IMG/VR virus record: IMGVR_UViG_3300011116_000433
Coordinates: 1-26,572 of that record
Source: a virus
Reading direction: 5' to 3' (one strand)
Length of the DNA stretch: 26,572 nt
Within the stretch, counting starts at the first letter, position 1. Each line of letters starts with the position of its first letter. The notes beneath the pieces were generated by a model. The model saw nothing but the letters and a program-made list of their open reading frames with translations, did not search any database and had not been told where the DNA came from. The position numbers and the translations under genes were made by a program. Below are positions 8,925 through 23,957 of this stretch, piece by piece.

Positions 8925-9022
8925 TAGCGAACCTGCAAACTGGTTCTATCTATCATAATCCCACGACAGCAAGCCGCGTAGTCTTCACAGTCCTGTGTTG
9001 GACAACCTGTTCTACAAGCCAT
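8924..9022 (-). CDS. Cys-rich 32-aa mini-protein (CxxxCPTQD type)
   Basis: This gene is only 33 codons including the stop, but both ends are TAATG overlaps, with the fibre gene before and the neck-like gene after. The product begins M-A-C-R-T-G-C-P-T-Q-D-C and then has C-C-R-G. Five Cys in 32 residues (positions 3, 7, 12, 18, 19) suggest metal binding or disulfides. I recall very short phage proteins opening with a similar C-R-T-G-C-P-T motif in actinobacteriophages, so the frame is probably a genuine conserved mini-gene. Role unknown. Confidence 0.68.
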   Translation of the reverse strand: MACRTGCPTQDCEDYAACCRGIMIDRTSLQVR

Positions 9023-10044
9023 TACGACCACGAACCTAGACTTGTAGGAGTACCTGCTACACCAATTAAACGCAATGAGCCAAAAGATTCACGAAGCACT
9101 GTTATTGTTGTACTTGAGGCAAGGCTGACGCCAATCTTTACTTGGAAATTATTGTCCGTTGCTGAAGCCCCTGTACGCAAAATTCCAGACATTCTTATTC
9201 CAAAACTTCCACCAGTAAGCGTACCAACTGCACCTATTGAAGTAGTTGTATCTTTAAGATTTATGTATCCGTTATTGCTATTTGCCCAAGTACTTGTGCC
9301 CGTAGCCGCTGAAGTGCCATAGCCATAACTTGTATGGAAGTTAAAGTTTGCAACGGAATCTCCAGTGACACCTAAGTTTATTTTTTGAGATGCCGACCCA
9401 CTAGTTACGTTTCCAAGAATGTAGTATTCAACTAAATAAAGGCTATTAGGTGTAAGTCCTGTCACACCTTTTGTTAGGTTAAAACAATCATACGTATTAG
9501 TAAGGCTGGACCCAGCAGTTGAGGCAGCAGCATTAGTGGTTAAAGTCATGCTCGTTGAAGGTGCAAACCACACAGTAGGCGCGGTAGCGTAATCTGCCAG
9601 CATTGCCGCTGTTACCGTTTTAGAATCCGCGCTTCCAACTAGCGTTCCGCTCGTAGGAAGGGTTACAGCGGTGTTACCCGTAGTTGTAAGACCCACAGTA
9701 TGGGTACTTGAGCCAATAGTCGTATTACCAGAAACTGTAATAGTCTTCCCAGTATTTGCTACGCCAGTACCACCATATTGACCAGAAACAGTTCCTGACC
9801 CAATTTGACTACCGCTTAGGGATAAGCCAGACGCAGACGTAATACTTGCTGGCAAAGTTGTGCCTGTAATATCAGATGCATCAGTAGCGTATAGAAGGGA
9901 CACCCAAGCAGTAGAGCCCGTGCCAATTTTGAACTTACCTGTATCAGTTTCAAAGCCGATCTCACCCGCAGCAAGTGTAGGGTTGGTTGAGGTCCAAGTA
10001 GCCGCAGTATCTCTACGAACTTGAATCTGTGTAATTTGTGGCAT
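9022..10044 (-). CDS. Virion appendage protein with Mtd-N-like head
   Basis: A 340-residue protein. Residues about 5-52 (QIQVRRDTAATWTSTNPTLA, then GEIGFETDTGKFKIGTGSTA) match the N-terminal domain of major-tropism-determinant and many tail-fibre proteins, which anchors a trimeric fibre. A Ser/Thr/Gly-rich shaft follows, including SGQYGGTG, and a C-terminal beta domain (about 155-340) likely forms the tip. The same anchor module occurs in the 194-aa gene nearby. AAGGAG lies inside the end of the preceding gene. It probably binds host surfaces. No reverse transcriptase or template repeat is present, so targeted diversification is not indicated. Confidence 0.75.
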   Translation of the reverse strand: MPQITQIQVRRDTAATWTSTNPTLAAGEIGFETDTGKFKIGTGSTAWVSLLYATDASDITGTTLPASITSASGLSLSGSQIGSGTVSGQYGGTGVANTGKTITVSGNTTIGSSTHTVGLTTTGNTAVTLPTSGTLVGSADSKTVTAAMLADYATAPTVWFAPSTSMTLTTNAAASTAGSSLTNTYDCFNLTKGVTGLTPNSLYLVEYYILGNVTSGSASQKINLGVTGDSVANFNFHTSYGYGTSAATGTSTWANSNNGYINLKDTTTSIGAVGTLTGGSFGIRMSGILRTGASATDNNFQVKIGVSLASSTTITVLRESFGSLRLIGVAGTPTSLGSWS

Positions 10045-11851: not shown

Positions 11852-12432
11852 GCTGAGCCTCCGTTAATAGTTCCCCCAGTAACAGAGCCAGAAATAGTTG
11901 GAGAGTTAAGGGTTGGAGAGTTAAGTGTAGGTGAGGTGCCAAAAGTTGTAAGAGATGAGTTAACAACATTAGATGCTAAGGTAGTTCCTGTTACAGTTGA
12001 CGCAGGAGTTACGCCACTTGCATAGGATAAGCTGTTCCATGCTGTAGATCCATTGCCAATTTTAAACTTTGTGGTATCTGACTCGTAACCAAATTCACCA
12101 GCATCCAAAACAGGGTTTGCTGAAGTCCATGTGGCAGCAAGTCCGCGCCTAGTCTTAATAGAGGTTAGCTGCGAGGACGGAGTACCGCCATCAAATACAG
12201 CAACATTTGCAGAAACTGTAGAAGTATCCGCCCATAACACGTTAAGGTTAGCTGGGGCAGTACTCGCAATAGTAATGCCAGTAGCTCCAGTAGGGCCAGT
12301 GGCTCCAGTAGAGCCAGTGGCGCCTGTGGCTCCAGTAGGGCCAGTTGGTCCTTGTGGGCCCGTGGTTGTTCCACTGATAACTACATTACTAGGAGTACCA
12401 GGAGCATTAACTACGACTACGCTATCACTCAT
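11848..12432 (-). CDS. Collagen-like / Mtd-N-like appendage protein
   Basis: A 194-residue protein. An N-terminal strand region is followed by about nine Gly-X-Y triplets (residues 25-52), which would fold as a collagen-type triple helix. Next is an ApxNLNVLWAD module and then an anchor-type module (about 92-140, RRGLAATWTSANPVLDAGEF) that is close to the N-terminus of the 340-aa fibre. The C-terminus has short S-P-T-L-N repeats. It is likely a trimeric shaft or adaptor of the collar or tail-fibre set. The ATG overlaps the stop of the adaptor/whisker gene as TAATG. Confidence 0.72.
   Translation of the reverse strand: MSDSVVVVNAPGTPSNVVISGTTTGPQGPTGPTGATGATGSTGATGPTGATGITIASTAPANLNVLWADTSTVSANVAVFDGGTPSSQLTSIKTRRGLAATWTSANPVLDAGEFGYESDTTKFKIGNGSTAWNSLSYASGVTPASTVTGTTLASNVVNSSLTTFGTSPTLNSPTLNSPTISGSVTGGTINGGSA
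12277..12360 (-). repeat. Gly-X-Y coding repeat
   Basis: About nine to ten 9-base units encode Gly-Pro/Ala-Thr triplets in the 194-aa fibre gene. Codons vary (GGC, GGA, GGG-type glycines and mixed third positions), so the repeat is held at protein level more than at DNA level. Such repeats are prone to slippage and length change. Confidence 0.75.
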
Positions 12433-19020: not shown

Positions 19021-20829
19021 TTACCTTAGGTAGAACGGGCTACTAGAGACTTCAGCCTCAGGCATGGTCATATCTACAGTAAGAACGCAAGCAATAGCCA
19101 ATGAGTCGGCGTAATCGTCATGTGCATGAGCTTCGTCAGGAGCAGCGGCAAGGAAGTTAGGGCCTTTAAACTTAGTCTCTAGATCAGTCATTTGCTGATA
19201 GAACCGCTTCCAGGTACGAAGTCTACGAGTTTTAGCATGCGATGGGAACCCTAACATACGCCGATCAATAAGAGCCTTTAAGTGCTTCCAGCGCTTAGAC
19301 TGTTCCGTTTGGCTACTAGTCAAGGCAACAACTTCAGCTCTTGGTAGTAATAGCTTAAGTCGCTGTGCAACAGCGTCTCCGACACCGTTGGCATCTATGC
19401 CAACCATAAAGACGTTGTAGTTATCAAGGAAGTTAACAATCTGGAAGTACTGATCCTCCCAGTCATCTCCTTGAATCTCAAGCCAATTAAGAACACGGTG
19501 GTCATAAAAGCCAAATTCGTCTGGTCGATCCCAATCTACCCAAACCACAGTAACGACCGTAGAGTCCATCTTACGAGCAGGGTCAATACCTACAACTACA
19601 GGGCTACGGTGGTAGGAACGCACAACCTCCATGCTTTTATCGCCAAGTTCGTCCATAACATTAGAGGTAATGAACATACCTTTTTCAAGCATCCACTTGC
19701 AGTTATAAGACATTTGGAACTCGTCAGAATCCTCACCAATGCGGAGTTTTTCCTTTTCGATGAACTTTGCGTATTTAGGGTTAATCTTTGAAACATCTCG
19801 CCAATCCCACTGGAAATGGTTTTGACGCTTACCTCTAGATGTTTGAGTACGTTTATTTAACTGAATAGACTTATAAAAGTTATTTTTGGTATTGGACGGA
19901 GTTCCAGTTTTAACCATAGTACCCGCGTAGTACGCCAACATAGGAGAAATTGATTTAGCAACCATGAAGTCGTCTGCACCCTGACACTCATCAATAACAA
20001 TAAGGTGGAACGACTTAGACTCAATCTTGGCTCGCGGGTTTGCGGTCATCATCATCATGGTTGAGCCAGAGTTCTTAAGGCGGATCTGACGAGTAACGCC
20101 AGGAACTTTGCCTAAAGTGTCATCAATCTCTGGATCACCCAAAATTTCAAGAGCACGTTCAGAGCTTAAGCGATCAACGGTTCTACCAAATAGGGTTTCT
20201 ACCTGACCTTCAACAGGAGCAAATAAACCAATCCAAATGCCGTCTTTGTACTGCCCTAACAGGTCTGGGTACATCTTAGCAAGGCGTGGAAGAAGCACCA
20301 TAAGAGTAGCTACAGTGTTAGCAATGGTCTCTGATTTACCTGACTGACGGGCCGCTAGAGCAGTAACCTCCGCGCTATCGTTGATAATTACCGACTCCAT
20401 AATCCTACGAGCCAAAGGGATCTGATATGGGTGTAATTCGTGCCCTACAAGGGCAATCCAAATGCCGTCTTTGTACTGCCCTAACAGGTCTGGGTACATC
20501 TTAGCGAGGCGTGGAAGAAGCACCATAAGAGTAGCTACAGTGTTAGCAATGGTCTCTGATTTACCTGACTGACGGGCCGCTAGAGCAGTAACTTCCGCGC
20601 TATCGTTGATAATTACCGACTCCATAATCCTACGAGCCAAAGGGATCTGATATGGGTGTAATTCGTGCCCTACAAGGGCGTTCATAAATTGGAGCATCTT
20701 ATCTACCAGCATGTTTACAAACTCTCTAGAGAGCTCGTCTAGACCATCTTCGTCATCCTCAACAGGCTGTTCAAGAAAGTCTTCTGGAAACTCTTCATCA
20801 GAGTCTATGTAAAATTGGTGCTCACTCAT
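19021..20829 (-). CDS. terL: Terminase large subunit with internal 75-residue duplication
   Basis: A 602-residue protein. The ATPase part has a Walker A-type motif ARQSGKSE (Lys90, repeated at Lys165), Walker B LIVIDE (Asp280, Glu281) and a KTGTP coupling motif near 307. The nuclease part has likely acidic metal ligands Asp416 (GIDPARK), Asp479 (GIDANG) and Asp572 or Asp575 (HDDYADSLA). It cuts concatemeric DNA and pumps it into the prohead through the portal. Residues 51-125 are repeated almost exactly as 126-200. Without the extra copy the protein would be 527 residues, close to normal. The gene follows a strong terminator; GGAAA precedes the ATG. No small terminase subunit is recognised nearby. 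Confidence 0.92.
   Translation of the reverse strand: MSEHQFYIDSDEEFPEDFLEQPVEDDEDGLDELSREFVNMLVDKMLQFMNALVGHELHPYQIPLARRIMESVIINDSAEVTALAARQSGKSETIANTVATLMVLLPRLAKMYPDLLGQYKDGIWIALVGHELHPYQIPLARRIMESVIINDSAEVTALAARQSGKSETIANTVATLMVLLPRLAKMYPDLLGQYKDGIWIGLFAPVEGQVETLFGRTVDRLSSERALEILGDPEIDDTLGKVPGVTRQIRLKNSGSTMMMMTANPRAKIESKSFHLIVIDECQGADDFMVAKSISPMLAYYAGTMVKTGTPSNTKNNFYKSIQLNKRTQTSRGKRQNHFQWDWRDVSKINPKYAKFIEKEKLRIGEDSDEFQMSYNCKWMLEKGMFITSNVMDELGDKSMEVVRSYHRSPVVVGIDPARKMDSTVVTVVWVDWDRPDEFGFYDHRVLNWLEIQGDDWEDQYFQIVNFLDNYNVFMVGIDANGVGDAVAQRLKLLLPRAEVVALTSSQTEQSKRWKHLKALIDRRMLGFPSHAKTRRLRTWKRFYQQMTDLETKFKGPNFLAAAPDEAHAHDDYADSLAIACVLTVDMTMPEAEVSSSPFYLR
20230..20679 (-). repeat. Perfectly in-frame 225-bp tandem duplication inside terL
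   Basis: Two adjacent units, 20455-20679 and 20230-20454, differ at only two positions (20506 against 20281, and 20593 against 20368). Both changes are synonymous. The period is 75 codons, so the frame is kept. The flanks share a single base at the junction. It could be a true recent duplication, or an assembly join of two closely related strains. Confidence 0.95.
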
Positions 20830-23591: not shown

Positions 23592-23957
23592 ATGACAATT
23601 ATGAATGAGGCGCCAAGCTTTGATGGCACACAAGTATGTAAAACAGTAGATCCTGATTTGTTTTTTCCAGAGTATCCTGAACGACTACCAAAGGATGCAA
23701 CTAAAGAACAAAGAGCGCAACTCGGAAAGGATATGCGAAAGTATAATGAGAATACCGCAAAAGCAAAATCTATTTGTGGTTCTTGTGAGTTTGCAGAACC
23801 GTGTTTAGTATACGCATTAAAAAACGATGTGTATGGGATATGGGGAGGCACTACGGACACTGAGCGTAAAAACTTCCGTAGACGAAATAAGTTACCTGCA
23901 CCTAAATCTATGATCTCAAACATAGATTTTTGGGCAAAAGAAAAGGGCGCCTTTTAA
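23592..23957 (+). CDS. whiB: WhiB-like iron-sulfur transcription factor
   Basis: A 121-residue protein with the WhiB signature: C16, C62-x2-C65 and C71 (C-Xn-C-X2-C-X5-C), which ligate a [4Fe-4S] cluster, then the turn Y-G-I-W-G-G (81-86) and a basic tail E-R-K-N-F-R-R-R-N-K for DNA contact. WhiB proteins bind the primary sigma factor region 4. Phage copies such as TM4 WhiB can repress host whiB2 and cause superinfection exclusion. It is the only plus-strand gene, with its own promoter and no ribosome site, so it is likely separately regulated and may act early. The opposite frame is antisense. The family call is very sure; the effect in this phage is not known. Confidence 0.96.
   Translation: MTIMNEAPSFDGTQVCKTVDPDLFFPEYPERLPKDATKEQRAQLGKDMRKYNENTAKAKSICGSCEFAEPCLVYALKNDVYGIWGGTTDTERKNFRRRNKLPAPKSMISNIDFWAKEKGAF

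Follow-up and report, generated by a model that had tools for sequence, protein, structure and literature searches.

One P-loop segment per subunit is usual in the large terminase proteins (TerL), as a common arrangement rather than a curated defining feature, and in TerLs of the T4 gp17 type the segment formed by a helix, Walker A, the next helix and strand 2 occurs once. The gp17 protein of phage T4, whose ATPase and nuclease domains have been reviewed (PMC9958956), exemplifies the type (Terminase_6N/6C, PHROG 2) in which a P-loop ATPase is combined with an RNase H-like nuclease. TerLs can be lengthened by inteins, unrelated inserts that splice out, which mycobacteriophage TerLs carry in the ATPase domain (PMC5050341). 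Moreover, unmerged sequence variants are a documented source of false duplications in genome assemblies, in that case of animals, where in the "heterotype" form both variants of a locus are assembled as paralogues (PMC9516828). The TerL described here has the same ATPase, nuclease and motifs as the gp17 type, but the segment that holds the Walker A motif is present twice.

The window, that is, the whole stretch of DNA that was analyzed, is an entire IMG/VR record of 26,572 bases and probably represents a genome fragment. It carries a contractile-tailed phage gene set, with tail tube, sheath, major capsid, portal, and terminase genes alongside one for a WhiB-like regulator, and the nearest named phages, Streptomyces phages BRock, GiJojo, and LuckySocke, show a similar neighborhood consisting of terminase, portal, major capsid, and tail sheath genes. 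The TerL gene (19021..20829, minus strand; 602 codons including the doubled segment) was assigned on the basis of profile matches (Pfam Terminase_6C, 2.7e-10, and Terminase_6N, 1.9e-5; phrog_2, 3.2e-35), the single-copy open reading frames of its relatives, and the predicted fold, for which the top match in a fold search was T4 gp17 (3cpe, E 2.6e-18). The presence of an N-terminal P-loop ATPase domain is indicated by the Terminase_6N match, the gp17 fold match, and the conservation of ARQSGKS and VIDE in alignment A1, and that of a C-terminal RNase H-like nuclease domain by Terminase_6C together with matches of the predicted fold to G20c nuclease domain structures. A profile built from the same alignment had no match among PDB sequences.

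The doubling consists of a 225-bp segment repeated once in direct tandem orientation and in frame. Tandem Repeats Finder reports it at 20229-20679, with a period of 225, 2.0 copies, 99% matches, no indels, and a score of 888; across all 26,572 bases no second repeat of this kind was found, the runner-up array scoring 94. The copy that comes first in the protein (copy 1; 20454..20678, minus strand; residues 51-125) adjoins the native N-terminus, and the one that follows (copy 2; 20229..20453, minus strand; residues 126-200) runs on into the remainder of the ATPase domain. Each contains the Walker A motif ARQSGKS, preceded by a helix with the conserved HPYQ and by strand 1, and followed by the next helix and the first half of strand 2 (GIWI). 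The 75-residue unit (ALVGHELHPYQ...YKDGIWI) thus appears as two identical protein copies within a single open frame of 602 codons that is free of stops, and removal of one copy leaves 527 codons, the size of the relatives. The likeness between the copies, 99% over 225 bp compared with 85% between the unit and the nearest accessible relative, is far above chance. The original prediction of an in-frame tandem duplication, with units of 225 bases, two synonymous differences, and Walker A in both, is therefore borne out by Tandem Repeats Finder and by codon comparison; the borders of the copies slide by one base, which makes the predicted span of 20230-20679 equivalent to 20229-20678.

The remaining functional motifs, whose names are assigned by likeness to T4 gp17, are each single in alignment A1 and the translation: the putative Walker B with its catalytic Glu (VIDE, 19987..19998, minus strand; residues 278-281), motif C (TGTP, residues 308-311, minus strand), and the nuclease motif DPAR (residues 416-419, minus strand). 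Copy 1 breaks off within strand 2 (...GIWI|) and has no separate Walker B, which implies that at most one complete ATPase center can form per protein.

Comparison with homologs yields a uniform picture of copy number. The 80 nearest TerLs in IMG/VR each possess one unit and one P-loop, in frames of 511-571 codons from stop to stop. When wider scans of IMG/VR, with the major capsid protein, the BRock TerL, and a mixed alignment as queries, were pooled with these, the unit was present at 193 loci representing 142 distinct TerLs; these scans may omit records very near the window, and within them no two-copy TerL was found (0 of 193 loci, 0 of 142 distinct proteins), no contig of a second strain was seen, and the nearest accessible relatives had 82-85% DNA identity to the window. 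The TerL of Streptomyces phage BRock (54% amino acid identity) is likewise single-copy. As assembled, the window protein accordingly departs from the one-P-loop arrangement, with two copies where all 142 relatives have one. A 29-base pattern from the unit had no match in IMG/VR, so no near-identical contig is visible there, and a degenerate pattern for the junction between the copies gave no match in IMG/VR as searchable, where records very near the window may be missing. A TerL profile search of GTDB genomes recovered no relative, and a literature search for a terminase with a tandem duplication and Walker A found no paper.

The longer TerLs of this group are extended by inteins and none by duplication. 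At two loci (L356:949-3627 and L357, with the same TerL), an intein of approximately 365 residues lies within the Walker A motif itself (SRQ|C...N|SGKS) and contains a LAGLIDADG domain (Pfam Intein_splicing, 1.1e-9; LAGLIDADG_3, 6.8e-14); the unit is split by this intein, which accounts for the two partial unit matches obtained there. Another TerL (L124:3059-5407) carries an intein of approximately 255 residues at a second site further along (MSYN|C...HN|CKWLLE), with weak matches to Intein_splicing and LAGLIDADG_3. An intein as the source of the extra length in the window protein can be rejected because the additional residues are themselves TerL sequence.

The copies differ at exactly two bases, both silent third-position transitions, at sites separated by 87 bp. 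One is A at 20281 and G at 20506, in a leucine codon (CTT at codon 183 in copy 2, CTC at codon 108 in copy 1); the other is C at 20368 and T at 20593, in a glutamate codon (GAG at codon 154 in copy 2, GAA at codon 79 in copy 1). Variation among such phages in this segment is mostly silent: within the unit the window differs from the relative L003 at 34 positions, 30 of them silent and four in codons whose amino acid is replaced; among relatives, the three most similar pairs show four silent differences and no replacements. In an unconstrained copy, the expected silent share would be 24% among changes of any kind and 34% among transitions, giving p ~0.06-0.11 for two silent changes out of two, and as a sign of constraint this pattern is suggestive only. 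The sites at which the copies differ are sites of ordinary strain variation. Both forms of the glutamate codon occur in the 80 relatives (GAA in 68, GAG in 12); the leucine codon also varies among these relatives, although CTC occurs in none of the 80. The simplest reading would be that selection filtered the differences while each version was the sole copy in its own strain. Selection after duplication, which the original prediction had offered as one explanation, is not required, given that single-copy strain variation explains the silent differences, and these are as compatible with the joining of two strains during assembly as with a real duplication arising from recombination between two strains.

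The junction between the copies (20444..20463, minus strand) reads, in gene orientation, ...GGCATTTGGATT|GCCCTTGTAGGG..., with microhomology of a single nucleotide (G); the native borders read ATGAAC|GCCCTT and TGGATT|GGTTTA. All junction words of at least 11 nt are absent from single-copy versions of the window, and simple k-mer confusion from homologous ends can therefore be rejected; for the same reason, an ordinary de Bruijn assembler would need at least one read bearing the junction. The origins that remain are contig ends joined without collapse of their overlap, a chimeric read, and a real molecule. The longest exact stretch common to both copies is 86 nt, and an assembler with a larger k could thus carry a real duplication through intact. 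The window contig contains no N letters.

We consider it probable, at roughly 60%, that the doubled segment is a spurious tandem duplication in the metagenomic contig rather than a feature fixed in the phage. Two co-occurring strains whose segments differ by approximately 1%, both having a normal TerL with one copy, would have supplied one version each, and a contig or path ending just past one version would have been joined to one starting just before the other, either by the uniting of contig ends without collapse of the overlap or through a chimeric read; both the strains and the joining step are what we infer from the following observations. The single unit in all 193 loci (142 distinct TerLs) and in BRock argues for this reading, as do the silent transitions, which are expected of standing strain variation, and the failure of the degenerate junction pattern to match in IMG/VR, with the reservation that records very near the window may be missing. 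A joining of two strain variants by the assembler, as originally suggested, is accordingly the best-supported single reading, but not by way of simple k-mer overlap, considering that junction and native borders have a single base in common. Several observations point the other way: the unit length is divisible by three, an outcome to be expected of an artefact in one case out of three; the homology at the junction is limited to one nucleotide, and its words of 11 nt or more do not occur in single-copy versions; a larger-k assembler could have passed a real duplication across the 86-nt shared stretch; the contig is free of N and of other such repeats; CTC is absent from the 80 relatives; and no contig of a second strain was seen in scans that may lack records very near the window.

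Contigs of this kind do contain duplications that make no evident biological sense. A scan for clean two-copy tandem repeats in 4.3 Mb of retrieved IMG/VR loci, partly overlapping and together too small a sample for a rate, detected one interior case besides the window and two more at contig ends. The interior case (L077:5566-5665) is an exact 50-bp tandem duplication that throws a small holin-like gene out of frame; L078 and L118 have this gene intact, at 97% protein identity. The parallel with heterotype duplication (PMC9516828) extends to near-identical copies, differences at sites of ordinary variation, and single-copy relatives; the heterotype cases, however, come from diploid animals and often have gaps between the copies, whereas the join in this virus contig is seamless.

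A recent in-frame tandem duplication that is real, in the phage or in part of its population, and in which one copy is inert, is the main rival, which we entertain tentatively. It would have arisen by illegitimate or unequal recombination at the 1-nt microhomology, perhaps between two co-infecting strains, a route that explains the silent differences as well as an artefact does. The maintained frame without a stop and the inability of shared k-mers to produce the junction are in line with such an event; its absence from every relative seen (142 distinct TerLs) and its position in a region of TerL that ranks among the most conserved, as judged from alignment A1, are not. A 225-bp direct repeat with 99% identity in an essential gene should be readily lost by recombination, which also counts against it, and a real duplication would be unstable and probably transient. 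Under this explanation, copy 2, being continuous with the downstream motifs, would form the sole working ATPase center, and copy 1 would lie inert, as 75 inserted residues separating the N-terminal helix from the core. Structure prediction is compatible with this arrangement. With 41 close relatives the model was unusable (mean pLDDT 47); with a more diverse alignment (mean pLDDT 74.9), the TerL fold, which matches T4 gp17 overall, is built from copy 2, with residues 130-200 forming the core at pLDDT 82-93, and residues 54-129 of copy 1 are left unstructured at pLDDT below 50. The alignment, however, placed all relatives on copy 2, and the model, which cannot alone tell which copy is used, indicates that copy 2 can complete the fold and not that it does so. 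The inert copy envisaged in the original prediction is thus a possible state of copy 1 if the duplication is real, with the proviso that the alignment behind the model is biased to copy 2.

Finally, it is very improbable that a real duplication has been kept by selection because its two complete Walker A segments provide each motor subunit with a second nucleotide-binding P-loop or a regulatory (pseudo-)site: the two protein copies are indeed intact and identical and their differences silent, but strain variation accounts for the latter, Walker B with its catalytic Glu, motif C, and the nuclease are each single, copy 1 stops inside strand 2 and so cannot complete a separate ATPase fold, and the single-copy state of all 142 distinct TerLs, an outcome that the original prediction had itself set against two P-loops per subunit, leaves that proposal without support. 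Were the duplication real, it would offer a natural experiment on whether the ATPase of a viral packaging motor can tolerate, or make use of, an additional P-loop. For now the doubling serves mainly as a caution: a seamless in-frame duplication with silent-only differences in the contig of an uncultivated virus can mimic biology, and annotation of a TerL of this kind as a two-site motor should wait for support from reads.

Elsewhere in the window, the WhiB-like regulator (23592-23957, plus strand; Pfam Whib, 6.1e-15) lies on the other strand from the structural genes and, together with the kinship to Streptomyces phages, fits an actinobacterial host. A tail-fibre-like protein (9022-10044, minus strand) contains an Mtd_N domain, the N-terminal domain of the major tropism determinant (4.8e-15), and a tail gene includes a short collagen-like repeat (GPTGATG...) in 9-base units (12277-12345, minus strand).
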